Below are positions 5,055-19,892 of a stretch of DNA of 21,158 nucleotides, one piece after another. Below the pieces are notes generated by a model, which was given only the letters and a program-made list of their open reading frames with translations, did not search any database and had not been told where the DNA came from. Source of the stretch: JAUWCW01 sp030609125 [NCBI: Candidatus Rokuibacteriota bacterium]. Its GTDB lineage: Bacteria; JAUVQV01. The translations under genes were made by a program, and so were the position numbers. How positions within the stretch are numbered: position 1 is the first letter of the stretch; each line of letters opens with the position of its first letter. The stretch covers positions 1 through 21,158 of the forward strand of contig JAUWCW010000006.1 of the NCBI GenBank assembly GCA_030609125.1, given 5' to 3'.

Positions 5055-6119
5055 TCACCTGCTGTTCTTCTTCGACTTCTCCTTGAAAAGCCTGAGCGCC
5101 GACTTGCGCAGGGCCTCAGGGATATTCCGGTTTTTGGCCAGCCCGTCGAGCTCGCGGAGGCTCATCCTCTTGACCTGCTGCAGGGAAATCGCCAGCGGCG
5201 TCTTGGGATTCATGGCCAGCGCCCGCCTGACCGTGATCAGCTTCAGCCATTCTCTCTTGTTGCCGATGTGGCGAAGCACGTCATCGGAAACATTCGTCGA
5301 CCTGGCGTACAGTTCCAGCTCACTGTCGGTGATCCTCGGGTTTTCGAGGACCTTCACGGCTACGAGGCGGTTCTTGTCCCTGATGAGAATCTTCCTCACC
5401 TCGCCGTTTCCCTTGCCCGCCAGCGCCACCTTCTGACCCGCCGTCATCGTCCTCAGAATCTGCTGTATGGTCTGTTTCTCCTGTTCTACCGCCGCGGCAC
5501 CGCCCCCTTCGGAGGGACCCTCCCTCTTCTCCCGCTCCTCGACAAGGACCACCGGCGGCTCCTCTTCTTCCCCGGGCGCCCGCTCATCCCTGCGCGCCCG
5601 CGCCTGCTTCTTCACCTCCTTCGCCTCGCGCACGCGCTCCACCGACTCTTCCCAGAGTCTCAGAACGTTGGAGGGCGTGGACGTGTTGGCGCGCATGTTC
5701 TCCACGATCCGCGGCTCCCTTTCCAGCCGTCCCTGGTTGTGCCCGATCATTTCCAGGAGGGAGGGAAAGGGAAGCGTTGCCAGGAACGCCGCCGTCTCGT
5801 CTCCGCAGGCAGGATTCAGCAGGATCTTTTCCAGCGTCTCCTCGCTGCGCGAGAAGAGCCGTGCCAGTTTGCCCAGGAGCGCCGGCGGGGATTCAGCGGA
5901 TGCGCACACCCCGATGACCACCGTCTGCGGGACTTTTTTCAGGCTCTTCACCGCCTCGGGACGGTATTTCTCCTCGGCGGCAAGGAGCAAGAGGACTTCG
6001 AGCATCTGCGCCGGCCCGAGGGGTATGATTCCTTTGGCGAGCGACATCTTCACCTGTGGCGGCGCCGTTCCGCAGCGCACCTGTTCGAGCATGGCGCCCG
6101 GCGACAGATCGTCCGTCAT
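5055..6119 (-). CDS. Uncharacterised helical-repeat (LRV/HEAT-like) protein
   Basis: This is a 354-residue protein that I do not recognise by name. Residues 1-155 are helical with short repeated Leu/Pro patterns. Residues 156-215 form a highly charged Lys/Arg/Glu linker with acidic Pro-rich stretches, probably disordered. Residues 216-345 contain repeated motifs of the leucine-rich-variant or HEAT kind: [20 protein letters not shown] (253-272), [11 protein letters not shown] (276-286), [18 protein letters not shown] (297-314) and [12 protein letters not shown] (327-338). Such repeats usually serve protein binding. No catalytic motif, signal peptide or membrane segment is seen, so it is probably cytoplasmic. 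The ATG at 6119 is chosen over a start 42 bases upstream because GGAG lies 5 bases before it and it overlaps the cytochrome stop as ATGA. Coupling to the cytochrome gene and the chemosensory block suggests a shared role, which is inference. Confidence 0.75.
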
Positions 6120-6682
6120 CTCTTCTCCGTCGGTAGAGGAGCAGTCCGCACAGCGGCGCACGGAATCGATCCGAGGGCGCTGGAAAGCACAAAATCAGGG
6201 GAGCTCTTGCGGGTGTGGCACCTTCTGCAGATTCTGCCCACCTCACAGGAGGCGCAATCCCTGCCGTAGGCGGTGGAGACCAGCGCAGGGTAGCCGCTGC
6301 CGGCGTGGTCCCCGGAAGGCCCGTGACACGCCTCGCAGGTGACACCAGCAAGCCCGGGAGTGCTCTCCCGGCCCTCGAACCCCTTCCACTCCCCGAAGCC
6401 GGTGGTGTGACAGCGCAGGCAGGCGGGGTTCCGCGCCTCTCCCGACACCTCGAGGGTGCGCAAACTCTCTGCATGAGCGGTCGCACTCCACAGCTCCTGG
6501 AGGACCTCATGACATTCGACGCAGGAACTCCGTCCGACGTACGGGCTCTCCCCCCGGGGTCTCTCCGCAACGGAGACCACCACGGAATCCGTGGGGGCGG
6601 TCACGGGTTCAGGCAGGCTTGCGGCACAGGCCATGACCGTGAAGGGAAGGATGAGGGCGGCGCTTCCGTATCTACCAGCCAT
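6116..6682 (-). CDS. Tetrahaem c-type cytochrome, probable lipoprotein (cytochrome c554-like)
   Basis: This is a 188-residue exported electron-transfer protein. The N-terminus (MAGRYGSAALILPFTVMACA) is a signal peptide with a plausible lipobox VMAC, so it is probably lipid-anchored. There are four CxxCH haem sites (CVECH, CLRCH, CEACH, CRRCH), spaced as in the cytochrome c554-like family: the YVGRSSCVECH opening, HTTGFGEWKGFEG and LAGVTCEACHGPSGDH. A fifth CxxC near the end (CASCE) lacks the histidine and would not bind haem conventionally. The ATG at 6682 is used; a TTG one codon upstream is also possible. The ribosome site (GGAA) is weak and 51 bp separate it from the pseudo-ATPase gene. 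Its stop overlaps the next gene by 4 bp. Proximity to a haem-binding chemoreceptor suggests a redox link; the electron donor and acceptor are unknown. Confidence 0.85.
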   Translation of the reverse strand: MAGRYGSAALILPFTVMACAASLPEPVTAPTDSVVVSVAERPRGESPYVGRSSCVECHEVLQELWSATAHAESLRTLEVSGEARNPACLRCHTTGFGEWKGFEGRESTPGLAGVTCEACHGPSGDHAGSGYPALVSTAYGRDCASCEVGRICRRCHTRKSSPDFVLSSALGSIPCAAVRTAPLPTEKR

Positions 6683-6733
6683 CAATGGTTCCAGGACGTC
6701 GTCCGTCGCTGCCGGAAAACGGTGAGTCGGTGC

Positions 6734-8458
6734 TCACTCCTCCACACCTTCATCCCTCGTTGATTCCAGCACATCTCTCACATCCACAAGCCCCTGCGTC
6801 GCCTTCATGATTCCGTCCTCCTGGAGAGACCACATTCCCTGGCGCAGGGCCTCGTCGTACACAATCTGCACGTCTGTATTCCGGGCCATCAGGTCCCGAA
6901 CCGAAAAACGCAGATTCAGAAACTCGAAGATTCCGAGCCGTCCGGACCGGCCGCTCTGCCCGCATTTCCTGCAACCCATCCCCGTGTAAAAGGCGAGGTC
7001 CTCGGGATTCTTGTCGCGCACGCCTTCAATAAGCTCCACCGGTGTGTCGAGCTTTTCCCTGCAGCTGCTGCAGATCCGGGGCAGCACTCTTTGCACCAGA
7101 AGTCCCCGAATCAGGCTGGCCTGCGTGGTTGGGCTGACACCGCAGTTCCGTATCCACTCCAACGCCTGCCTGTTGTCCCCGAAGCTGCACAGCCCGATGA
7201 CGAGACACTGCCGGGCCGCCGTGAAAACCAGTTCCAGCGTGCGGCAGTCCCTGATGTCGGTAAGCCCGACAACGTCCGGATTCTGCCGAAGCAGCGACTT
7301 GAGACCGTGGTAGAAATCCACCCCCTGCCCGAAGGAGACCTGCGTCTGGCTGACATTGGCAACCGGATACTGCACCGGATGCTCGAGGGTCATGATGTTC
7401 CTTCCCTCCTCCTCCCTGAGAGAGTCAAGAAGGCTGTAAAAGGTCGTCTTCTTCCCCTGCCCGGGCGGAGCGCTCACAAAGAAAACCCCCGTCTGCATGT
7501 TCAGAGCCCGGCCCACTTCGTCAGCGACCTCCTTGGACATCCCGAGCTCCTGAAGACCCCTTCCGATGAGTCCCTCGTCCATTATCCTGAAGACGAGCCT
7601 TTCCCCGTGGATGGTCGGGAAGGACGAGAGGGTCACCGGCAGGGCGCGTTTGCGGACCACCACTTTCAGCCTTCCTTCCATGGGGCTCGCCGAAGACGAC
7701 CGGATGTCTATTCCGGCCAGGCTGAGGCCGTAATCGACGATTCCCCTCCTCAGCTTAACCGGGGCCGTCTCGCCCTCTGCAAGCTTCCCCCCCGACCTGA
7801 AGCGCGCCCTCAGACCTTTCACCGTCGGCTCCAGATGTATCTCCCTTGACCTTCTCCTGATGGCCTGCAAAAAGAAGCGCTTGAGCCAGTCCTCCGTGGT
7901 GTATCCCTCCCGGGGAGGGGTGGAGCGGTAGAGGTGCTTTTCCTCTTTCTCTTCGCCGAGGCGCAGGACACCCTCTCCCTCGCCGGCCCGGACTCCGTCG
8001 CCGCCGCCGTAATACTTCTCCAGCGCGCTCACGAGGGAAGCCTCGGGAGCTATGAGGGGATCCACCTTCATCCCCGTGATCCTCCCCAGTTTCTCAACGA
8101 TGTTTCCTCTCCCCGGATCGACCATGGCCACCGTCAGCGTGTCGTCGAGAAGGTGCAGGGGCACGACCTTTTCCTTCACGGCAAACTCCCGCGGAACGAG
8201 TTCGACGATATCCCTGCCGACCTGGAAGCGATCGAGGTTGACGGCCGCCACGCCGAACTGCTCACTCAGAAACTGCAGGAGGTCGTCCGCTTTCAGCGCT
8301 CCCACACGGATGAGGTTGAAGCAGAGCCGACCGCCTCTCGCCTCCTTCTCCTCCAGCGCCGCCTGAAGCTGCTCTACGGTAATGACTCCCGCTTCCAGGA
8401 GCAGGTCTCCGATCCTCTTCTTTTCCTCTGCAGGCTTCGTCCCGCGGTCTTTCAGCAT
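6734..8458 (-). CDS. MshEN-domain GspE/PilB-like protein with degraded ATPase motifs
   Basis: The 574-residue chain has the full GspE/PilB architecture. Residues 15-38 and 44-67 form two 24-residue MshEN motifs separated by 5 residues (RIGDLLLEAG... and RLCFNLIRVG...), the layout that binds cyclic di-GMP in MshE. An N1E-type region to about 148 and a RecA-like domain follow. The catalytic boxes are altered: the P-loop reads PPGQGKKT (332-338), with Lys in place of the usual Thr/Ser after the invariant Lys; the Asp box is EHPVQY (359-364) instead of EDPxEY; GEIRD is TDIRD (400-404); and both His-box histidines are lost (GLCSFGDN, 422-429). The zinc cysteines C463, C466, C496 and C499 are intact. 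ATP hydrolysis is therefore unlikely. ATG 8458 is chosen over a longer start because it overlaps the GGDEF gene stop by 7 bp and matches the usual family N-terminus. It probably acts as a cyclic-di-GMP-responsive regulator or scaffold; this is inference. Confidence 0.85.
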   Translation of the reverse strand: MLKDRGTKPAEEKKRIGDLLLEAGVITVEQLQAALEEKEARGGRLCFNLIRVGALKADDLLQFLSEQFGVAAVNLDRFQVGRDIVELVPREFAVKEKVVPLHLLDDTLTVAMVDPGRGNIVEKLGRITGMKVDPLIAPEASLVSALEKYYGGGDGVRAGEGEGVLRLGEEKEEKHLYRSTPPREGYTTEDWLKRFFLQAIRRRSREIHLEPTVKGLRARFRSGGKLAEGETAPVKLRRGIVDYGLSLAGIDIRSSSASPMEGRLKVVVRKRALPVTLSSFPTIHGERLVFRIMDEGLIGRGLQELGMSKEVADEVGRALNMQTGVFFVSAPPGQGKKTTFYSLLDSLREEEGRNIMTLEHPVQYPVANVSQTQVSFGQGVDFYHGLKSLLRQNPDVVGLTDIRDCRTLELVFTAARQCLVIGLCSFGDNRQALEWIRNCGVSPTTQASLIRGLLVQRVLPRICSSCREKLDTPVELIEGVRDKNPEDLAFYTGMGCRKCGQSGRSGRLGIFEFLNLRFSVRDLMARNTDVQIVYDEALRQGMWSLQEDGIMKATQGLVDVRDVLESTRDEGVEE

Positions 8459-9921
8459 TCCACCCGGTTCCTTCCGTTTTCCTTCGCTCTGTAAAGCGCC
8501 CTGTCCGCGGCGCTTATCAGCTCCGCCGGACTGGATATCCCCTCCCGGGGGCACGAACCCACACCCATGCTGATGGTAACTCTCAGATCCTCGTCCTGAC
8601 CCGGTATGGAATGCGACTCCACGGCGGCCCTGAGCCTCTCCGCCACCTCCCCGCAGACGCTGTCCCCGGTTTCCGGCATGACTATGGCGAACTCTTCCCC
8701 GCCGTACCGGGCCAGCACATCACCGGAGCGGATATTCCCCTGCAGTACGCGGGCAAGCTCCTTCAGCACGATGTCACCCTGCTGATGTCCATAGGCGTCG
8801 TTGAAGCGCTTGAAGCGGTCGATGTCCAGCAGAATCAGGGACAGGGGCCGGCCGCTCCTCTCGCTGCGGGAGAACTCCCTCAGCAGCTGCTCCTGAAAAT
8901 AGCGGTGATTGTAGACCTTGGTCAGGCCGTCGGTTATTGACAGCCGCTTCGTCCGCTCATAGAGCCTCGCGTAATCGACAACGATGTTGGCGTGGCGGGA
9001 GATGATATCGAAGGTCTGCTCCGTCCGGTCGCTGAAAACCCCTACCTGCGCCGATGCGAGGGCAATGATGCCGCTCGGTTTTCCCTTGGTGAAGAGCTTG
9101 CTGGAGCTCAAAGAGCCAATCTGCGCCGGGTGCGAGCCGGGTACCTCGAGAAGCCCGCCGGGGTCGTACACCTCCTCCTTCATCACCTGCGGTCCGCCCC
9201 CTTCCCCGCCAAGAATCCTGCCCGCCTCGGTCCCGAGCTTTTCCAGAAACGCTCCATCCACACTGCGGTTGACGAAAGTGTGAAGCTCCAGTCTCTCGTC
9301 GTCGCTCAGGACGATGCAGCCGGGGTCAAAATCGATGACCTTGCCGAGAATCTCCAGAACACTGACTATGGTCTTGCTGTAATCGTCGAGGCTGTTCACC
9401 AGGTCCTGTATCTCGTTGACTACCGTCGACTCGAAAAGATTGCGGTCCAGAAGCCTGATAACCCGTTCCATGACGTCGAAACCGAGGCCCCCCGCCTTCT
9501 CCGGCGAAGTCTCCGTCTTCACCCCGGCCGGCTTTTCTCCCGTCCTCTCGTCGAGGAACTTCTTGATCTCTTCCACAAGCTCCCCGACGGCGCCGCCCTT
9601 GGTGATGTACTTGTCAGCGCCGGACTTGAGGCCCCAGAACATGTCCTGCTTCTTGTCCAGGCTCGTGAGAAGGACCACGGGGATGCCCACCGTGTGCTGA
9701 TCGTCCTTGAGAAGCCTGCACACCTGGTAGCCGTTGAGCCTGGGCATGATGACATCCGAAACGATCAGGTCCGGTCTTTCCTGGTAGGTCTTCTCAATGG
9801 CCTCGATACCGTCCCTCGCCAGGACGACCTCGTAACCCAGCCGCTGCAGGCTGAACTTCACCATTGCCGCCTGCGTCGGCGTGTCCTCGGCGAGAAGGAT
9901 TTTCACCTTTCCCCCGCTCAC
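8452..9921 (-). CDS. Response regulator diguanylate cyclase (REC-GAF-GGDEF), WspR-like output
   Basis: The 489-residue protein has three parts: a receiver domain (5-125) with acidic pocket E12/D13, phospho-acceptor D56 and K108; a GAF-like domain (about 160-320); and a GGDEF domain (329-489). The active loop is GGEEF (407-411), competent for making cyclic di-GMP from two GTP. An RxxD product-inhibition I-site (R398-D401) lies exactly 5 residues upstream, so feedback control is expected. It is the only complete output-type regulator in the cluster and lies directly after cheB, as WspR does in the Wsp operon; CheA is the probable phosphodonor. The GTG start at 9921 overlaps the cheB stop by 4 bp. 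The GAF domain is additional to Pseudomonas WspR, so the gene symbol is left blank. Confidence 0.93.
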   Translation of the reverse strand: MSGGKVKILLAEDTPTQAAMVKFSLQRLGYEVVLARDGIEAIEKTYQERPDLIVSDVIMPRLNGYQVCRLLKDDQHTVGIPVVLLTSLDKKQDMFWGLKSGADKYITKGGAVGELVEEIKKFLDERTGEKPAGVKTETSPEKAGGLGFDVMERVIRLLDRNLFESTVVNEIQDLVNSLDDYSKTIVSVLEILGKVIDFDPGCIVLSDDERLELHTFVNRSVDGAFLEKLGTEAGRILGGEGGGPQVMKEEVYDPGGLLEVPGSHPAQIGSLSSSKLFTKGKPSGIIALASAQVGVFSDRTEQTFDIISRHANIVVDYARLYERTKRLSITDGLTKVYNHRYFQEQLLREFSRSERSGRPLSLILLDIDRFKRFNDAYGHQQGDIVLKELARVLQGNIRSGDVLARYGGEEFAIVMPETGDSVCGEVAERLRAAVESHSIPGQDEDLRVTISMGVGSCPREGISSPAELISAADRALYRAKENGRNRVEC

Positions 9922-10967
9922 GTGCCCACCGCCAGCAGCTTCATGACAGCCGGAAGGATCTCCCCGAGAGGCAGTACCTGATCGGCCACCCCGGCCTCGA
10001 TGGCGGCCCTGGGCATCCCGAAGATAATGCTCGTCTCCTCATCCTGGACGATGGTCCGCCCTCCCCTCTCTTTGATGCTCCGCAGCCCCTGAACTCCGTC
10101 GCTGCCCATCCCCGTCAGGAGTATCCCCACGGCCTTGCTTCCGAAGTTCATCGCCACGGATTTCATCATGCCGTCAATGTTCAGTCTCTCGTCCGTGGTC
10201 GTGGCTCTGCGGATTCCTATCCGCCGCCGCCCGTGAACCTCCAGCAGCCCCCTGTCGGGCGCGAAATAGACCACTCCCTTCTCGATCTGCTCCTGGTCCT
10301 CGGCAATCTTGACCTTCACGGATGCGCTTCTGTTCAGCCACTCCACGCATCCGGCCCCGAAGCCCTCCGAGATGTGCTGGGTCACGAAAATCCCCGCCGC
10401 GATATCTTCAGGAACTTCCCGCAGGAGCGTGTGCAGCGCCGACGGACCGCCCGTTGAAGCTCCCACCGCGACTATCAATTCGCCGGGTCCGCCGGTCATT
10501 CTCCCCACCGGCCGTGGGGTGGCCGCCCTGAGCCGGGGGGAAAGGTGCCGGAAGACCTTTATTTCAGAGATCATCTTAACACGCCGTATGATCTCCGCGC
10601 CAATCTCCCGGTAGTCCGATTGCAGGCTTCCCTGCGGCTTCTCAATTATCTCGAGGGCGCCTGCCTGGATCGCGTTGAAGGAGATCTTCAGGTCGTCGCT
10701 GCTGACGGAAGAGCTGATGACGAGAATCGGTGTCGGCGTCTCCGCCATAATGCGCCGCGTGGCCTGGAAACCGTCCAGGACCGGCATCCTGATGTCCATG
10801 GTCACGATATCGGGTTTCAGGTTGCCTACCATTTCAACCGCTTCCCGGCCGTTCTTCGCCACACCGACCACTTCGATGTCCGGGTCCGACTCAAGCATCC
10901 TGGCCAGCATCTTCTGCGTGAAAATGGAATCTTCCGCTATGACCACTGAAATCTTCTTATTTTTCAC
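9918..10967 (-). CDS. cheB: Chemotaxis protein-glutamate methylesterase/deamidase CheB
   Basis: This 349-residue, standard two-domain CheB removes methyl groups from receptor glutamates when phosphorylated by CheA. The receiver domain (6-125) carries D13/D14-region acids (AED at 11-13), phospho-acceptor D58 (TMDIRMP) and K111. The linker is about 126-160. The methylesterase domain (161-349) has the catalytic triad S171 (GASTGGPSA), H198 (TQHISEGF) and D290 (TGMGSDG), all intact. The start is a GTG at 10965-10967, with only a GC-rich, weak ribosome site. It lies 37 bp after cheA and overlaps the GGDEF gene by 4 bp. Together with CheR it forms the adaptation arm; in the Wsp comparison it corresponds to WspF. 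Confidence 0.96.
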   Translation of the reverse strand: MKNKKISVVIAEDSIFTQKMLARMLESDPDIEVVGVAKNGREAVEMVGNLKPDIVTMDIRMPVLDGFQATRRIMAETPTPILVISSSVSSDDLKISFNAIQAGALEIIEKPQGSLQSDYREIGAEIIRRVKMISEIKVFRHLSPRLRAATPRPVGRMTGGPGELIVAVGASTGGPSALHTLLREVPEDIAAGIFVTQHISEGFGAGCVEWLNRSASVKVKIAEDQEQIEKGVVYFAPDRGLLEVHGRRRIGIRRATTTDERLNIDGMMKSVAMNFGSKAVGILLTGMGSDGVQGLRSIKERGGRTIVQDEETSIIFGMPRAAIEAGVADQVLPLGEILPAVMKLLAVGT

Positions 10968-11004: not shown

Positions 11005-13311
11005 TCACAGCAGTTGCTTGATGGTCGCCAGAAGGCTCCCCTGCTCGAAGGCTCCCTTGGTGATATAGGCGTCGGCTCCGGCCTCGATCCCTTTCTTCTT
11101 GTCCTCTTCCGAATCCAGGGACGTGACGAGAATGACCGGCAGATCCCGGAAGCGTTCCTCGCTCCGCAGCTGCTCCGTCAGCTCGAAACCGCCCATCCTC
11201 GGCATCTGCACGTCGGAGACGACAAGATCGAATTCTTTCTCCCTCGCTTTTTCCAGAGCGTCTCTGCCGTCAACGGCGAGGGTGACCTTGTAGCCGCTCC
11301 CCTCGAGAATGTTCTTCTCCAGCACGCGGGTGGTCACGGAGTCGTCCACCACCAGGATCTCCGGCCTCCTCCGGGCGCCTTCCCCTTTTTCCCTCTCCCC
11401 CTTGACCCACAGGCCCCTGACTTTCCGGGAGGACTTTATCAGATCGAAGACGTTGAGAATGAGCACCACGCTCCCGTCGCCGAGGATGGTGCCCCCGGAA
11501 ATGTTCCTCACCCTGCGCAGCTGCGGTCCCAGCCCCTTGACGACGATCTCTTTCTCGCCCAGCACCTCCGTGACGATGGCCGCCACCCGCTCCTCCGCCG
11601 ACCCCAGCACCACCACCGGCGCCCTGTCACCCTCCCCGAGCTGTATGCCGTCGTCGGGCAGCGAGAGGACGTCGTGAAGCCTTACCAGGGCGGTGGGCAT
11701 GCCTTCCACCAGGATCGCCTCCCTCGACTCCACCGTCATCACCTCGGCGAGGCCGATCTCGGTGATGTTGTCCACCGCCGTCAGGGGGATGGCGAAAACC
11801 TGATCCTGCACGCGCACCAGCAGGGCCTGGGAGGTGGCGAGAGAGACGGGGAGCTTGATGGAGAAACGCGACCCCTTGCCGCATTCCGAGGACAGCGCAA
11901 TAGTCCCCTTCAGCATTTCGATGGCGCTGTAAACCACGTCCAGCCCGACTCCCCGGCCCGAGAGGTCGGTGATGATCCCTTTCGTGGAGAACCCGGGCTG
12001 GAACACCATGGCCATGATCTGCTGGTCCGTCATTTCGCCCAGGCTCTCCTCCGTGGCATAGCCCCTTCTGAGCGCGATGGATTTCAGCTTCCCGAGCTCG
12101 ATACCCGCTCCGTCGTCGGTTATTTCAATGAGCACGCTGTTCGCCCTCTGGGTGGCTGACAGCCGAATGATTCCCGCCGCCGCCTTGCCCGCCGCCTGTC
12201 GCTCCGCGGGTGTCTCGATTCCGTGGTCGAGAGCGTTGCGGAGAATGTGCATCATCGGGTCCTTCAGCTGCTCGAGTATCCTTTTGTCAAGCTGTATTCC
12301 GCCACCCTCCACCTTGAGCTCCACCTCCTTCCCCTCGCCCCTGGCGATATCGCGCAGAAGACGGGGGAAGGTATTGAAAAGCGCCGACAGGGGCAGCATC
12401 CTCACCCTGTTGATCGACTCCTGGAGCTCACTCGATATGAGGGTCATCCGCAGGCTGTCCTCGTTGAAGCTCGTGAGAAAGGCCGCGAAGCCTTCATGGA
12501 GCCTCGCTATCTTTCTCCCCGTCTCCGTCCGCGATTCGATCAGCCTCTCCATGGCCTCTTCCGAGCGGGGTACATCCGGGAGCTCCATCTGTCTCTGCAG
12601 GTTTCCCCACGCCCTGCGGATGTCGTCGAGCTCGCTTCCAAGCCGCCGGACCTCGGACAGCCTCTGGTCGAACTTGATTTTGGTGACCAGAATTTCCCCG
12701 ATCCGGTTCATCAGGTCGTCGAGCTTGTGCGTCGTCACCCGTATCGTTTCCTCAACCTCGAACCGTACCCCTTCCCGCTCGGATGTTTCCTTTTTCCCGC
12801 GGCGGCCTCTAATCATTCCCGGCTCCGCACCCTCCGGCCCGGGGGCTTTCCCCTCTTTCCTCCGCACCCTCTTCTCCGAAGTCTTCCCTTCCGCCTGCTC
12901 CCTCTTCGGTGTCTCCTCCTTGCCCGCCAGGCCCATGCGCTCCACCAGGTCATCGATATCCTCGACGTCGCCCTCGGGATCGGCGAGCCAGCTCTCCGTC
13001 ACCCTCTGCACTGCATCGAGGGTCTCGAAAATAACGTCGAACGTCCTCCCCTCCAGGGTCAGTTCCTTCTTCCTCACCGCGGCGAAGATGTCCTCGAGGC
13101 TGTGGGCTAGTCTTTCCACGGCGTGAAAGCCGATCATGCGGGCGGAACCTTTGAGACTGTGAGCCTCGCGGAAGACCTCTTCGAGGAGTTCGGGTCTCAG
13201 GGGATCCTTTTCCATGACCAGCAGGCACTCGTTCAGCCTCTGCAGGTGCTCTTCGCTTTCCGCCTTGTAAATGGAGAGGATTTCCTGGAGTTCTTCGGGA
13301 TCGAAGCTCAT
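11005..13311 (-). CDS. cheA: Hybrid chemotaxis histidine kinase CheA with C-terminal receiver
   Basis: The 768-residue domain order is: HPt P1 (1-125) with phospho-site H51 in AHSLKGSARM; a basic, Pro/Gly-rich linker (about 130-183) with no clear P2 CheY-docking domain; dimerisation P3 (184-310); HATPase P4 (about 312-490) with the N box HILRNALDHGIE (355-366), DDGAGI (399-404) and GRGVGLDVV (452-460); CheW-like P5 (491-628); and a receiver (650-768) with D700 and K752. The kinase autophosphorylates in a receptor-CheW array and passes phosphate to its own receiver, CheB and the REC-GGDEF protein. The fused receiver, as in WspE, FrzE and PilL-like kinases, may act as a phosphate sink or relay. 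Lack of P2 agrees with the absence of a stand-alone CheY. ATG 13311 has a weak purine-rich ribosome site and lies 8 bp after the receptor gene. Confidence 0.96.
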   Translation of the reverse strand: MSFDPEELQEILSIYKAESEEHLQRLNECLLVMEKDPLRPELLEEVFREAHSLKGSARMIGFHAVERLAHSLEDIFAAVRKKELTLEGRTFDVIFETLDAVQRVTESWLADPEGDVEDIDDLVERMGLAGKEETPKREQAEGKTSEKRVRRKEGKAPGPEGAEPGMIRGRRGKKETSEREGVRFEVEETIRVTTHKLDDLMNRIGEILVTKIKFDQRLSEVRRLGSELDDIRRAWGNLQRQMELPDVPRSEEAMERLIESRTETGRKIARLHEGFAAFLTSFNEDSLRMTLISSELQESINRVRMLPLSALFNTFPRLLRDIARGEGKEVELKVEGGGIQLDKRILEQLKDPMMHILRNALDHGIETPAERQAAGKAAAGIIRLSATQRANSVLIEITDDGAGIELGKLKSIALRRGYATEESLGEMTDQQIMAMVFQPGFSTKGIITDLSGRGVGLDVVYSAIEMLKGTIALSSECGKGSRFSIKLPVSLATSQALLVRVQDQVFAIPLTAVDNITEIGLAEVMTVESREAILVEGMPTALVRLHDVLSLPDDGIQLGEGDRAPVVVLGSAEERVAAIVTEVLGEKEIVVKGLGPQLRRVRNISGGTILGDGSVVLILNVFDLIKSSRKVRGLWVKGEREKGEGARRRPEILVVDDSVTTRVLEKNILEGSGYKVTLAVDGRDALEKAREKEFDLVVSDVQMPRMGGFELTEQLRSEERFRDLPVILVTSLDSEEDKKKGIEAGADAYITKGAFEQGSLLATIKQLL

Positions 13312-13319
13312 GGTTTCTT

Positions 13320-15287
13320 CTACGGCTTTCCGGGCCGCCCGCTCACGAACCGCTCGAAATCCTGTGCCAGCCGCCGGTAGTTTTCCAGGTGCTCTTTCAG
13401 CTTCTGCAGCTCCCGCAGGCTCGTGAGCATCATCTTGTCAATGCTCCCGATGGAGGCCGCAACCTGGCGGGCCCCGGTGGTCTGCTCCCGCGACGCGATT
13501 GAGATCTGCTGCGCCGACTCCACCACCTCCTGGAACCCTTCCAGGATATGCCCGAAGGAGGCGTTGAGAGAATTGATGACACGGACCCCGGCCTGGACGC
13601 TCTTCGAGCCTTCCTCGGCCGACATGACAGCCGTGTTGGTGGCGTCCTGCATTTCCTGAATGAGCTTTTCGATATCCTGGGTGGACCGCGAGCTCTTGAC
13701 GGCGAGCCCGCGGATTTCCTTCGCCACCACCGCAAAGCCCTTCCCGTGCTCTCCCGCCCCCGCCGCTTCGATGGCCGCGTTCAGGGCCAGCAGGTTTGTC
13801 TGTTTCGACACCTCTCCCACGACCCTCACGATATTGCCTATCTCCTGCGATTTCTTCGAAAGACCGAGGATGTTGTGGGCAATGGTGTTCACCTGGTCGG
13901 CGATGAGGTTCATCCCCTCGATGGACTGGTTCACCAGGCCCCGCCCTTCCTCGGCGGTATCCATCGCCTTCTGGGAGGCCTCAAAGACGTGTTCGACCAT
14001 CTGGGAGGACTGTTTCGCCGCCACCGAAACTTCATCCACCGTCGAAGACGTCTCATGGATAAACTCGTATTCTCTCTCCAGATCGTTCTCTCTTTCCACC
14101 ACGGAGTTCACCACCGCGTTGGAGATCTCCATGATCCCGCCGATGCGCTCTTCTATGCTGCTTAACACCTCCCGCTGTCCCCCCACCAGTTCCGCCAGTT
14201 CGACGGCGAATCCACGGAGGGGACTCTCCGGGGGGAATTCCTTCACAACCTTCTCGAGCCCCCTGCCCTTGTCCGCCAGAAGTCTCTCGAGGAGGAAGAA
14301 AGAGTCCTTCGGCACGGCGATGGTGTCTTTGCGCCCTTCCTCCTGCCGGAGAAGCTTCTCCCGGGCTTCCTTCAGGGCTTCCATGTGCGCGTTGAGGGCT
14401 TTGGCCGCCCTCATCCATCCTTCGTCGCCGTCGGGCTGAAACAAACGGGTGTAGTTACCCCTGGCCATCGCCTCGAGCGAGAGATGCAGCTGACGGAGGA
14501 TCTTCTCCTGCCTGCTCTTCGTCTCCAGGCGTTCTCTTTCTCCCTCGGCAAGAGAGCGGGAGACCCCGTTCATCGCCTTCAGCAGGTCCCCATGCTCGAC
14601 CCACTTTTCCACCGCCGCCGGCTTCCCGTATCTTCCGTCCGCCAGATCCTCTATCTGCTGTCTCAGTTTTTCTTTTCCCGCCCACGCCATCCACGCCGGC
14701 AAGAGGAACGCCAGGAAGGCGACCATCACCGCGGAGGTGATCAGCTGCGTGCGGGAGGCAATGGCATCCTCCACCTCGCGCCCCCGCTCCGAGAGCCGCG
14801 CCACTTCCTTCTCCCTCACCGTCTCCTTCAGCACACCCAGCTGGTAATCGAGGGCGGCCACGAGCCGCAATAGGTCTTCTCCGGAAGAGAGGTTCGTTTC
14901 CGCTTCATCCAGGAGGTTCAGGAGGGGGTCCACATCTTTCCGCAACCGGTAGTGGGGGAGGGCCCGCATCTCTTCCAGCGCCGCCCGGGCCTCTCCGATG
15001 CGCAGGCCGGCATCGCCGCCCTCCCTTACCGGACCGCACGACATGTGCCGGGCAAGCCGGCCCACGGAGTTGCCCGCCACCTCGCTCAGCACCGAAAGCC
15101 TCTGGGACGCAACGATGCCTGAAGCGGCCTCCTTGATCCGATTGTCTTCTCTGAGAACGGCGAAGGAGAGGATACAGATGATGGCCAGCAGCGCCAGCAG
15201 GCCCCTGCCCGTCCAGGAGCTGAAGACCCACCCCGCCCAGCCGGTCTGTGCCCCTCGTACCGCTCTTTCCGGGCCCGCCATGGTCAT
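13320..15287 (-). CDS. Methyl-accepting chemotaxis protein with variant hairpin tip
   Basis: The 655-residue receptor has TM1 at about 28-46, a helical periplasmic region (47-182) of no family I can name, TM2 at about 183-202, a HAMP-like helical stretch, a long helical spacer (about 250-400) and the MCP signalling domain (about 400-645). The tip reads [20 protein letters not shown] (494-513). The Arg that makes trimer contacts in Tsr (R388) is Gly510 here, and the residue aligning with Tsr F373 is Lys495. No NWETF-type CheR tether is present at the C-terminus. It probably couples to the CheA/CheW of this cluster. The start may be the ATG at 15287 or the one two codons in (15281), which has AGAGG 6-7 bases upstream. 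It lies 16 bp after the haem receptor gene. Confidence 0.92.
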
Positions 15288-15303: not shown

Positions 15304-17661
15304 TCAGATGTCGTACTTCCGGGCCACGTTGCGCAGCGCCATGGCCAGCTCGTTGAAGCCTTCCGCCACGTTCTGCAGGCTCTCAGCGCTGGAGGTGGTC
15401 TGCTTCATGCCGGCGTTGATGCTCGACATCGCAATCGATACCTGCTGGATACCCACCGACTGCTGCTTCGCGATGGAGGCTATCTGCTGAACCGCATCGG
15501 CGGTGTCGGAAATCGTCCGCATGACGCTTTCGATCGTTTCGCCGCCCTTGAGAGCCAGCCTCACCCCCTGCTCCACCCCTCTGGCCCCTTCCTCCGTTGC
15601 CACCACGCTGGCCCGGGTCGCTTTCTGGATCTCATTGACCAGCTCGGCGATGCGGGCCGTCGCCCGCTGGCTCTGTTCGGCCAGCTTCTTGACCTCCACC
15701 GCCACCACGGCAAATCCCTTGCCGTGCTCGCCGGCACGCGCCGCCTCGATGGCCGCGTTGAGGGCGAGCAGGTTCGTCTGGTCCGCTATGTCGCTGACGG
15801 CGGTCACGATGGTCCCGATCTGCTGGGCCTGCTGCGAGAGCTCCAGGATCTGCTGGGCTATCGCCTCAACCTTCTCCCGAATGAGCTGCATGGTCTCGAT
15901 CTCTTCGTTGATCGCCGCCTGGCCCTCCCTGGACACTTCCACCGACTTCTGCGCGGACGCCACCACCGCGTCGGCCTTCTCCGCCGTCTGCTGGGACGTT
16001 ATGTCCAGTTCTTCGATGGTCGTGGCCACTTCCTTCACCGATGACGACTGCTCGGAGATGCTCTTCTTCTGCTCTTCCGTGTTCTGCAGAATCTCACCCG
16101 AGATGTTCAGCGTCTGGCTGGAGGCGTCCTGAACGTGTTTGAGCACCTCCAGCAGGTTGCTCATGTTTTTCTTCTCTTCCGTTACGTCGGTCATGATCTC
16201 CAGGAAGCCCGCTATCTCGTTGCCCGCCGTCATGAGAACGGCGCCGCTGGCCCGGGTGATAATGCGTTCATCCCGCCTGGTGAGAATCTCGCGCTCCACG
16301 CCGTGGACCATGTCTCCCGATTCCAGCACCTGGTCGTAGAGGCAGGAGGTGCGGCAGAACTCCCCGCGGAAGACCTCGTCGCACCGCTTTCCCACCGCCT
16401 CGTCGGGGGCAAAACCGACCAGGGCGGCGGCGGCGTCGTTGATGTAGGTGATCTTCTTTTCCCGATCCATGGTGTACATGGGATCGGCGATCGCCCTCAC
16501 CACCGACTCGGACCAGTTCGTCTTTTCCGCCAGCTCCCGCTCCGCCTTGACCTGCTGCGAGACGTCGCGAAAGATCCCGATCGCTCCCAGAACCTCGCCC
16601 GCCGAGTCCTTCAGCACCGAGGTGCTGGTGATAACGGGTACGAGCTTCCCGCTCTTGGTTCTTATGGTCAGGCTCTCACCACCGCGCTCCTCCCCTCCCT
16701 TGACAAGGCCGAGGAGCGAGCAGCCCTCGTCGCGGCACCTCTCGCACGCCATCAGGTCCCTGCAGGTGAACTTCCCCAGCGCCTCGTCACGGGAGGTCTC
16801 GGTCAGCTCCTCGGCGGCCTCGTTCATGAAGGTCACCGTTCCCTGCATGTCGATGGCCAGCATCGGGTCCGAGATGCCCCTGATGATGCTGCTGCTTCTC
16901 TCCATGGCGTCGTTGAGGTTGACGATCATCTGGTTGAAGGCCCTGGCGAGCAGACCTATCTCGTCCCCGCTCCTGACGGGCACCTTCACGGAGGTGTTCC
17001 CCGCCGCCACCTCCGTGGCCCCGTGAGAAAGCTCCACGATGGGGCCGAGCACCAGGTACTGCAGGAGGAAAAAGAGCGAGACGCCGACGACGACGACAAT
17101 GATAATCCCCCACCACACCATGCGGTTGGTGGCCGCGGCGACGTCACGCCGCAGGTCTTCGATGTCGAGCCGAAGATCCATGGCGCCCAGTATCGCCCCC
17201 ACCGCGACCTCGTCGTGACAGTGCATGCAGGCCTCGGAGTTGATCAGGGGGACCACCTGCCGGAGCACCATCTTGCCGTCCACCGTCTCCCGCACCGTCT
17301 CGGGAACGGCGGTGGAGAAGACCTTCTCCACCAGGTGGTCGCTCGTCCCGGAGCCGACCTCGGCAATCCGGGCGCTCTGGGTAATGACCTTGTTCCAGTT
17401 CATGATGCGAATGCTTTCGAAGTCCGAACCGGCGACCTCCTCCACGAGCCTCTGGATACTCTCCGTATCGCCGCTCCGCATGGCCCTCTCCATGCTCGCC
17501 GAAACGGTTCGGCCGACGTGCTCCATGAGATGCGACGTCCTCTCCAGGGCTTCTCTCTCCTGCTGCTTCAGCATCAGGGCAAACGATATGCCGAGGATGA
17601 CGACGAGGCTCACCCCGATGAAGATCAGGACCTTCGGTCCCAGTTTGACATCTCGCCCCAT
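15304..17661 (-). CDS. Haem-binding, dual-PAS methyl-accepting chemotaxis protein
   Basis: The 785-residue receptor has TM1 at 11-31 and a periplasmic domain (32-178) that ends in a c-type haem motif, CMHCH (145-149), as in DUF3365/Tll0287-like sensor domains. TM2 is at about 181-205 and HAMP at about 205-255. PAS1 (255-368) carries a cysteine cluster (C300, C306, C309, C314) and PAS2 (385-497) another (C427, C436, C440). The MCP signalling domain (about 500-780) has a normal tip, [19 protein letters not shown]. Covalent haem should require export and the cytochrome c maturation machinery. The known precedents are periplasmic haem-PAS chemoreceptors of Geobacter. A role in sensing redox state or a haem ligand is inferred, and the PAS cysteines suggest a second, cytoplasmic redox or metal input. 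ATG 17661 has GAGGGAG just upstream. It follows cheW by 41 bp. Confidence 0.93.
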
Positions 17662-17702: not shown

Positions 17703-18341
17703 TCAGACGTTCTCTTCGACGACAAGGCGGGGGTTCTTCAGGATCTTCTCCAGTTCGACAACAATCAGCATCTCTCCTCGGCGCGTGGCGATGCCCCGTA
17801 TGTAATCTTCGGCTATGCCCTTGTCAAGGGAAAGGGGCGGCTTGATACCCTCCTCCCTCACGTCGGTTATTTCGTCAACCATGTCCACCAGCACCCCTAT
17901 CCTCAATCCCTCGCCCTCGACGACGAGAATGCGTGTCTTCTCGCTCATAACGACCTTCGGCAGCCCGAAGAAAACCCGGATGTCCACCACGGAAAGGATA
18001 TTGCCCCTCAGGTTCATAACGCCCGCCACGAAGTCCGGCGCCGTCGGGACGGGGGTGATGCGGCCCGCTCTCTGGATCTCGCTCACCATGTCTATACCGA
18101 CTCCGTACCGGTCCGATCCCAGCCTGAAGGTAACCATCTTCAGGCTGTCGCTCCCTTGCCCCTCCTGAGCCGGCACGCGGCTCAGTTCGAGGGCTCTCCG
18201 ATACCAGAGGTCGTGAAGTTCCTCTTCGGTCATCTCCCCCGACACCTCCCGGGAGAGTTCATCTATCCGGCGGTGGATTTCCTGCCAGACCTCGCTCTGG
18301 TCCGGGCTTCCGAGGTTTCCGCCGCCTTGCTGATCACTCAT
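17703..18341 (-). CDS. cheW: Chemotaxis coupling protein CheW with N-terminal extension
   Basis: The 212-residue adaptor links receptors to CheA. The CheW domain spans about 67-205, with [20 protein letters not shown] (67-86), [18 protein letters not shown] (105-122) and the later [20 protein letters not shown] region, all as expected. Preceding it is an extension of about 65 residues containing [19 protein letters not shown] (39-57), a short helical motif that resembles N-terminal motifs of CheW proteins in alternative-output chemosensory systems. ATG 18341 has a strong GGAGGAG site upstream and overlaps the cheR stop by 8 bp. It is the only free CheW in the window and must serve both receptors unless another is supplied elsewhere. 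Confidence 0.95.
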
Positions 18342-19848
18342 GGCCGAACTCCTCCGGAACGGGACCGGGCATCATCGCCAGAACCGTCTTGCGCAGCCTC
18401 CCGACCGTGAGTCCGTCCACTCCGCTGACGTAATCCCCCTGGTCCCTCCCTTTCAGGATCTCCACGACGTTGACGAAGGAGCGCCCCGCCAGGTGCTCCT
18501 TCCCCTCCCTGAGATAGAACACGCCCATCTGGAAATGGCCGAGAACGAACGCCCGGTTGACATACACGGTCCTTTTCAGTGCCGAGAGCTCACCGTCGCG
18601 GTCTCCCTTGACGCGGCAGATCAGGGACGTCAGGTAGGTGGCCTCGAGATGGAGGGGATTTTTCTCCAGAATATTCCGGACTTCGCCCTCCGCCTTGTCG
18701 ATCTTTCCGCAATTGGCCGCAATGAGCGCCAGCATGTAGCGCGCCCTTTCGTTGGCGGGGTTCATCTCGAGAATTGCCTCGAAACTCGCCATCGCTTCGT
18801 CGAGCCGCATCTCCCGGTAGTGCTCGACCGCCTCCTCGAACCGCACCGTCTCCTCCGTATCAGAGGGTCTCTGGATGCCTGTCTTCCTGCGCTTTCGCGT
18901 CTGGTCGTGAACAACCGTGCCGGGTTCCGGCTTTCCGCTTCCGCGAAAAAGCAGTTTGAGCCCGTTCTCCCAATATCCGCCAGCCGTTTCCTTTCTGTAA
19001 ACGATGGCGGAGCCGAGCATATGCCTCCGAAAGCGGCTGTAGACCATTTCACTGTGCTCTGTGTGGCCCACGAGAAGGTACCCCCCGTCCTTGAGGCACC
19101 CGTAGAAACGGCGCGTTGTCTCGCGACTGAGGTCGACGTTGAAATAGATCATCACGTTGCGGCAGATAACCAGGTCCAGTTCGTCCGTCCTGTTCACCAC
19201 CGCCGGGTATATGTCCTCCGCCAGGTTCAGGTACCGGAACGTCACCATCCGGCACAGCTCCGGCGCCAGCCGCCACCCCTTGTCTTCCTCCACAAAGAAG
19301 CGACGCCGGTAGTAGTCCTCCACCTCCCGGAACGACCAGTTCCTGTAATGCCCTTCCCGGGCGGTATCGAGGGACTTGACGTTGATGTCGGTGGCCAGAA
19401 TGGTGACCGCCCAGTCGGCGATGTCCGGAAGGAGCTCCAGCAGAAGCATGGCGATCGAATACGGCTCCTCGCCGGTCGAGCAGCCGGCGCTCCAGATCCT
19501 GAGACGCCGTCCCTTCTCCCGGGCCCGCCCGATCAGGTCCGGCAGAATCCTGGTCCGCAGGGCGTCGAACTGCGGACGATTGCGGAAGAAATGGGTCTCC
19601 CCCACGGTGAGGCGGTTCACCAGGTGCCTCAGCTCGCTTCCCGCCTCCCCTTCCGCCTGCAGGAGGCTGAAGTACTTGGGGAAGTCCGGCGGGGGGTTCC
19701 TCCGGGCCATGCGCTCGCCGACCAGGGCAACGAGTTCCTCCCGCTTGTCCTCCTTGAGGACAAGCCCGGTCTTTACGGTGAGATAGTCCCTGATTCGTCC
19801 GTATTCTTCTCCCGTAATGGAACTGAGGGTCCTGTTGGTCGTCATCAT
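18334..19848 (-). CDS. cheR: Chemotaxis methyltransferase CheR with C-terminal TPR domain (WspC-like)
   Basis: This enzyme transfers methyl groups from S-adenosylmethionine to receptor glutamates. Numbering from the chosen start: an all-helical N-terminal domain (about 8-75), ETHFFRN (84-90), the SAM loop SAGCSTGEEPYS (120-131) and CRNVMIYFN (229-237), all intact. A basic linker precedes TPR-like repeats (about 340-470), as in WspC/FrzF-type CheR proteins, where TPRs replace the pentapeptide tether. Length is 504 residues. The frame also holds an ATG at 19884, but that start has no ribosome site and lies upstream of a good promoter whose -10 box is at 19865-19870. The ATG at 19848 has AGAGG 6 bases before it. 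It is first in the minus-strand block and overlaps cheW by 8 bp. Confidence 0.93.
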   Translation of the reverse strand: MMTTNRTLSSITGEEYGRIRDYLTVKTGLVLKEDKREELVALVGERMARRNPPPDFPKYFSLLQAEGEAGSELRHLVNRLTVGETHFFRNRPQFDALRTRILPDLIGRAREKGRRLRIWSAGCSTGEEPYSIAMLLLELLPDIADWAVTILATDINVKSLDTAREGHYRNWSFREVEDYYRRRFFVEEDKGWRLAPELCRMVTFRYLNLAEDIYPAVVNRTDELDLVICRNVMIYFNVDLSRETTRRFYGCLKDGGYLLVGHTEHSEMVYSRFRRHMLGSAIVYRKETAGGYWENGLKLLFRGSGKPEPGTVVHDQTRKRRKTGIQRPSDTEETVRFEEAVEHYREMRLDEAMASFEAILEMNPANERARYMLALIAANCGKIDKAEGEVRNILEKNPLHLEATYLTSLICRVKGDRDGELSALKRTVYVNRAFVLGHFQMGVFYLREGKEHLAGRSFVNVVEILKGRDQGDYVSGVDGLTVGRLRKTVLAMMPGPVPEEFGHE

Positions 19849-19864
19849 TCTCCGCCTCTGAGGT

Positions 19865-19892
19865 ATTGTAGGCTTTTTCATCATGCCGTCAA
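19865..19892 (-). promoter_or_regulatory. Sigma70-type promoter for the chemosensory block
   Basis: Reading the minus strand, TTGACG (19892-19887) and TACAAT (19870-19865) are separated by 16 bp, one mismatch to consensus in each box. Transcription would begin near 19858, giving a leader of about 10 bases that contains AGAGG before the cheR ATG at 19848. Such a short leader is unusual but workable. It is the only strong promoter I see at the head of the block. Confidence 0.65.

Follow-up and report, generated by a model that had tools for sequence, protein, structure and literature searches.

A conserved PilB-related protein with a predicted dead ATPase site, encoded in a Wsp-like chemosensory operon

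The closest described precedent for the protein studied here is PilB of Myxococcus xanthus, one ATP-binding, MshEN-containing protein that is tied to a chemosensory pathway and serves both as pilus motor and, independently of the motor, in signalling. Its K327A variant shows poor ATP binding, no pilus motility and dominant EPS signalling upstream of Dif, and the available sections of that work propose nucleotide-free PilB as the signalling state and leave open how prevalent signalling ATPases may be (PMC5544727). MshEN domains have also been described joined to CheA, CheX or REC domains (PMC5013675), and Wsp-type (ACF) chemosensory pathways combining CheR-TPR with REC-GGDEF proteins are known as well (PMC3447774).

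Here we describe pseudo-PilB, which is, as judged from its sequence, a conserved pseudo-ATPase of a Wsp-like (ACF) chemosensory operon. It is like the PilB, GspE and MshE assembly ATPases (T2SSE plus MshEN; TIGR02538) in full domain order, fold and zinc tetracysteine motif, but differs from them in having a destroyed nucleotide site, in scoring below the TIGR02538 cut-off and in being encoded in a chemosensory operon. With M. xanthus PilB, whose proposed active form is nucleotide-free, it shares the coupling of an MshEN-containing PilB to a chemosensory pathway; here, however, the gene is a separate one and the motor part is lost, and whereas M. xanthus PilB sits upstream of Dif, the gene order only suggests a place after the REC-GGDEF regulator. 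It links MshEN to chemosensory signalling, as do the joined MshEN domains, but as a complete dead motor, and relative to Wsp/ACF pathways, with which the operon shares CheR-TPR, CheW, MCP, CheA-REC, CheB and REC-GGDEF, it is an extra gene. The parts are known individually; the combination of a dead PilB with a Wsp-like operon did not appear in the literature searched and is apparently new. Among the titles and abstract openings covered by that search, which took in only a minority of subscription-journal papers, none describes a PilB/GspE that carries MshEN, is catalytically dead and belongs to a chemosensory operon, and the available parts of PMC11656802 and PMC12943098 name no such protein.

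The gene, its fold and its operon

Within the window (the whole stretch of 21,158 nucleotides analysed), the pseudo-PilB gene occupies 6734..8458 of the minus strand, with an ATG at 8458 and a stop codon ending at 6734, and encodes 574 amino acids (P0001). An alternative GTG start at 8554 would give a product of 606 amino acids, but in the sequence ATGCTGA the ATG overlaps the stop codon of REC-GGDEF, the gene upstream, making 8458 the likelier start. The domains comprise MshEN_N (residues 15–67), MshEN_C (68–154), N2D (190–290) and a dead ATPase domain with a zinc C4 motif (291–574), with Pfam scores of 193.8 bits for T2SSE (cut-off 24.9) and 67.8 bits for MshEN. The best NCBIfam match was TIGR02538, at 310.9 bits below the PilB equivalog cut-off of 675.65, and a second PilB/GspE equivalog of NCBIfam also scored below its cut-off (262.6 versus 630.25 bits). 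The closest solved structures by sequence were chains named PilB and PilF, and we regard the predicted protein as a diverged PilB. An AlphaFold2 model (mean pLDDT 80.1, pTM 0.61) gave Foldseek matches to PilB and MshE and aligned to PilF with Z 35.8 (rmsd 4.9, 382 residues), having the T2SSE fold with N2D and CTD, and to MshE (5htl) with Z 14.3 (rmsd 3.5, 139 residues), this model being built on a 13-row alignment whose other rows were ordinary T2SSE sequences that favour such a fold. A first model, from two alignment rows, was discarded as poor (mean pLDDT 44.7). The zinc motif is intact (Cys463, Cys466, Cys496 and Cys499), with all four cysteines found also in the orthologue described below and in 37/37 comparators.

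The upstream genes, likewise on the minus strand, encode CheR-TPR (18334..19884) and CheW (17703..18341), both by Pfam; an MCP with HAMP, PAS and an Mcp40H-type sensor (CMHCH), by Pfam and sequence (15304..17661); an MCP-type receptor in which Pfam finds no sensor family (13320..15287); a CheA-REC hybrid kinase with its Hpt His and its N and G boxes present (11005..13311); CheB with REC and methylesterase domains, by Pfam (9918..10967); and a REC-x-GGDEF response regulator with GGEEF, RxxD I-site and phospho-Asp motifs (8452..9921). With CheR-TPR, CheA-REC, CheB, CheW, MCP and a multidomain response regulator all found, the operon is by predicted gene content of the Wsp-like (ACF) type. Flagellin, the one flagellar family searched, gave no match in either of the two incomplete genomes of the phylum.

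The next gene downstream of pseudo-PilB, possibly of the same operon, encodes a cytochrome c554-like multihaem protein (6116..6685, minus) with the motifs CVECH, CLRCH, CEACH, CRRCH and CASCE, a candidate lipoprotein by its N-terminus. Mcp40H-type CMHCH sensors carry haem c, and the Mcp40H/CMHCH receptor and the c554-like gene flank the signalling genes on either side. A 368-residue frame at 5055-6161 (minus) overlaps the end of the cytochrome gene and is blank in Pfam and NCBIfam at E 0.001.

Two genomes of the phylum were covered, the window's own (G000) and a second one (G001), and the gene is found in both. The orthologue, of 568 codons against 574 and 52% identical, lies on a contig of 6108 bases (G001:C280) in the order CheA-REC, CheB, REC-GGDEF, pseudo-PilB, as in the window. 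The CheB orthologue is at 61%, that of CheA-REC, which is cut by the contig end, at 60% over residues 185–768, and that of REC-GGDEF, in the same place, at 56%, its catalytic, I-site and phospho-Asp motifs being present in both genomes. After the orthologue and before the contig end, a lipobox-like stretch similar to that of the c554-like protein reads as a lipoprotein start.

Outside this pair, no orthologue was found in the sets searched. With profile A1 and a cut-off of 1e-100, scoring three candidates per genome, 82 of 386 relatives (including G000 and G001) gave a match, the pair scoring 1179.7 and 1122.4 bits and the next best 388.4. Three further phyla, represented by 3, 195 and 7 genomes and searched at 1e-113 without a positive control (seven candidates per genome for the 195), yielded none. 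The sets searched overlap, and a distant pseudo-PilB scoring under any of these cut-offs would escape. A contig scan outside the phylum gave one locus, a canonical PilB at 30%, and a scan of viral contigs (query A2) gave none.

We also compared 20 related regions from outside the phylum. Of 63 matching genomes, the first 20 each contributed one neighbourhood, centred on the best CheB relative, and several of these regions are cut by contig ends. REC-GGDEF relatives above 340 bits occur in 4/20 and a T2SSE match in 2/20: in one region (L085) the gene is canonical and lies on the other strand, and in another (L089) it is a 224-residue fragment that is situated upstream of CheR, has GEIRD and TLHT, and does not have the P-loop in its frame. 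In 0/20 of these partly truncated regions does a T2SSE match follow REC-GGDEF, so such pathways do without a pseudo-PilB elsewhere. In two regions (L086, 4746-6287, minus; L090, 12356-13891, plus) the gene after REC-GGDEF resembles, to judge from its sequence, an MscS channel that ends in a cyclic-nucleotide-binding part.

The nucleotide site and the constraint on the gene

The site was analysed in an alignment of P0001, its orthologue and 37 comparators, the 39 sequences left after duplicate removal from 45 rows covering at least 440 residues; the comparators are the best matches to the query and hence biased, with shorter matches left out. Five of the 37 have no recognisable MshEN_N, three of these being all gaps there. 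The preliminary description of this DNA had noted altered ATPase boxes together with four retained zinc cysteines and two retained MshEN motifs, and the sequence bears this out. The boxes of pseudo-PilB read APPGQGKKTT (P-loop), LEHPVQY (Asp box), LTDIRD (Walker B) and CLVIGLCSF (His box). In place of the canonical Walker A GPTGSGKT/S, P0001 has APPGQGKK and the orthologue APLGQGRH, the comparators having GPTGSGKT or GPTGSGKS apart from three that carry Cys at the Ser position (and, in one case, Ser at the Gly before it). The Lys of Walker A survives in P0001 as Lys336 and is Arg in the orthologue, and the Thr/Ser is Lys and His, respectively. The Asp box is EHPVQ in P0001, ESPVR in the orthologue and EDPVE or EDPIE in the comparators. 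Both of its acids are gone from P0001, the Asp being His360 and the Mg-coordinating Glu being Gln363 (Arg in the orthologue). Walker B is TDIRD and GDVPD versus GEIRD (one GEVRD) in the comparators, the catalytic Glu being Asp in both proteins, and of the His-box histidines the first is deleted in both and the second is Ser in P0001 and Glu in the orthologue. The Walker A Lys, both Asp-box acids, the catalytic Glu and both His-box histidines are kept in 37/37 comparators. All four boxes are thus altered as first described, with three corrections to that description: both Asp-box acids are gone, the first His-box His is a deletion, and the arginine finger, R271 of Geobacter (Gm) PilB, is Thr276.

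Nine nucleotide-handling residues of Geobacter PilB were taken from the available part of PMC5424180 and mapped via the structure chain, using chain number minus 20 as a deduced numbering. All nine are invariant in 37/37 comparators; P0001 keeps two and the orthologue one. R455 (R457 of P0001) is kept in both and R286 in P0001 (as R291), with Lys in the orthologue, while T327, R271, E357, E395, T411, H413 and H420 are lost in both. The outcome is the same at R271 (Thr), E395 (Asp) and H413 (deletion) and different at the other four, so that the proposal to look for the same substitutions in orthologues was answered in part: the boxes are lost there too, with identical changes at three residues. 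An orthologue with canonical boxes was not found, and the one in the same context lacks the catalytic boxes, which supports the pseudo-ATPase assignment. Being common to a 52%-identical orthologue in the same operon, the box loss is above chance. On these alignments ATP hydrolysis by pseudo-PilB can be taken as lost, and nucleotide binding is very probably lost too.

Among 66 columns invariant in the comparators (residues 190–569), 42 are kept in P0001, 39 in the orthologue and 35 in both. With a nucleotide-site column set that was picked after viewing the alignment, losses at the site versus elsewhere were 11/21 and 13/45 in P0001 (p 0.059), 13/21 and 14/45 in the orthologue (p 0.018) and 10/21 and 10/45 in both (p 0.037). 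This enrichment is only modest, and the whole of pseudo-PilB has therefore diverged, not the site alone. Two cysteines, residues 418 and 424 (7187-7207, minus), lie in the former His-box region of both orthologues, and 0/37 comparators have them at those columns.

The gene is under constraint, as measured in one comparison of two genomes. Codon positions 1, 2 and 3 are identical between the orthologues at 63, 71 and 41% over the whole gene and at 62, 68 and 42% in the former core, and positions 1 and 2 are conserved over position 3 in every segment examined. The dead core thus resembles the rest of the gene, which indicates that pseudo-PilB is still constrained. Identical residues number 33/53 in MshEN_N, 18/26 in the segment before the P-loop (residues 300–325) and 57/113 in the core; by contrast, the GspE-like proteins of the same two genomes share 366/545 overall and 93/113 in the core. 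From these counts we conclude that the special constraint on the core is lost and some constraint is left. The stretch QELGMSKEVADE (residues 303–314) is identical in both pseudo-PilBs and, save for Leu-Gly, unlike most comparators. In the tree the two proteins pair with support 100/100 on the longest inner branch (2.49; midpoint root), a root that together with their unusual letter make-up leaves the place of the pair among the motors unsure.

Possible roles of pseudo-PilB

Pseudo-PilB probably serves in signalling rather than as a motor. The full reading that we prefer, and hold as tentative, is that a PilB motor was recruited to a Wsp-like operon, lost its use of ATP and has been maintained by selection in a signalling role without motor function. 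To the dead site read from sequence, the modelled fold, the shared loss, the conserved gene order and the constraint, it adds a ligand, a partner and an output that we infer as follows. A PilB/GspE-type motor ATPase would have entered the operon before the two genomes of the phylum split, and would then have given up hydrolysing ATP and, very probably, binding it as well. The receptors, one with a CMHCH sensor, would set CheA-REC, which would phosphorylate REC-GGDEF; the c-di-GMP made, perhaps at a high local level, would be sensed by pseudo-PilB next to it through its attenuated MshEN; the body of pseudo-PilB, free of nucleotide at all times, may present a signalling conformation towards a chemosensory or envelope partner, as proposed for ATP-blind M. 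xanthus PilB.

The case for c-di-GMP is weakened by the MshEN domain itself. Its two 24-residue motifs (residues 15–38 and 44–67) are separated by a 5-residue spacer, and NF053729 (NCBIfam) scores 52.7 bits against a cut-off of 38. Ligand-contact residues are changed in both motifs: Cys46 replaces the motif II Gly in both orthologues, as the preliminary description had reported for P0001, and Lys38, which it had overlooked, replaces the Gln at the end of motif I in P0001 only. In MshE this motif Gly makes a backbone hydrogen bond to guanine (PMC5013675), and in GSPII-A of Thermus PilF the same Gly changed to Ala raises KD about tenfold, to 19 uM (PMC12002112). Weak or lost binding is therefore expected for pseudo-PilB. 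Weak binding stays possible, since GSPII-B of PilF still had a KD of 950 nM when Gln was exchanged for Glu at what we count as the last position of motif I (PMC11731258). The receptor role that had been claimed is thus less sure than stated. In G001 an 868-residue frame (L072, G001:C12, 7815-10418, minus) has an MshEN near its C-terminal end and no matched ATPase domain.

These same residues bear on a ligand-blind scaffold, in which the ATP and c-di-GMP sites are both unused and the protein serves the chemoreceptor array as a structural adaptor. Such a role, favoured by Cys46 in both proteins, by Lys38 in G000 and by XpsE, a known MshEN protein that has lost c-di-GMP binding (PMC5013675), appears somewhat unlikely, as 13 of the 15 MshEN columns checked, including Asp114 (which we equate with MshE D108), do not differ between the two orthologues, and MshEN_N is conserved at 33/53 versus 52% overall.

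A dominant-negative or regulatory subunit would instead join a real PilB/GspE hexamer, or compete for platform proteins, and brake pilus extension when the pathway is active. The retained fold, zinc site and R457 would suit such a subunit, and motors with canonical boxes, with gene names read from sequence and neighbours, are present in both genomes: GspE-like ones (C246 and C306), a PilB-like one in G001 (C140) and, in G000 (C347), the C-terminal piece of a PilB-like protein, next to a gene that resembles PilT. We nevertheless consider this role unlikely. Pseudo-PilB is only about 30% identical to the real motors, its arginine finger and several comparator-invariant N2D columns are changed, no inner branch of the tree is longer than its stem, and its gene is in the chemosensory operon and not with pilus genes. 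Of the poisoning or capping of PilB that had been suggested we saw no sign, there being nothing to indicate PilB contact, and the signal-responsive scaffold offered beside it suits the chemosensory context better. The PilM match is a strong one in G001, at 285.8 bits, and a weak one in G000, at 24.1 bits. In both genomes a P2-type CheA is followed by another PilB-like gene whose boxes are canonical (L066, G000:C254; L075, G000:C229; L070, G001:C350), whole in G001 and split over two contig ends in G000, so that a motor adjoins a further chemosensory kinase.

Quite improbable, in our estimate, is a ligand-gated signalling ring in which another input has replaced ATP, namely low-affinity c-di-GMP from the REC-GGDEF pool only and possibly redox state too. 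Redox comes into question because Cys46 of the c-di-GMP pocket, Cys418 and Cys424 are common to both orthologues and absent from 37/37 comparators at those columns, and also because the operon has the CMHCH receptor and an adjoining multihaem cytochrome gene. A slow ATPase, or one of unusual site geometry, is very improbable: Lys336 and R291 are kept in P0001 and Glu to Asp is a conservative change, but Gln or Arg stands for the Mg-binding Glu and Lys or His for the Walker A Thr/Ser, neither His-box histidine is left and the orthologue lacks the Walker A Lys as well. That the gene is a decaying pseudogene, as the long branch and the loss of so many invariant columns might suggest, is scarcely credible given intact frames in copies so far apart, the codon pattern in each segment, four of four zinc cysteines and a conserved place in the operon.

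In the preferred reading, that of a recruited and retained non-motor PilB, pseudo-PilB could act locally as the effector of a Wsp-like diguanylate cyclase. By analogy it looks like the nucleotide-free signalling state of M. xanthus PilB, made permanent in evolution and carried on a gene to itself. In the papers examined, the evidence for a PilB-type motor signalling independently of its pumping comes from mutants of one Myxococcus protein (PMC5544727). A natural, separate and ATP-blind PilB in a c-di-GMP chemosensory operon would make such signalling testable without confounding by the motor.
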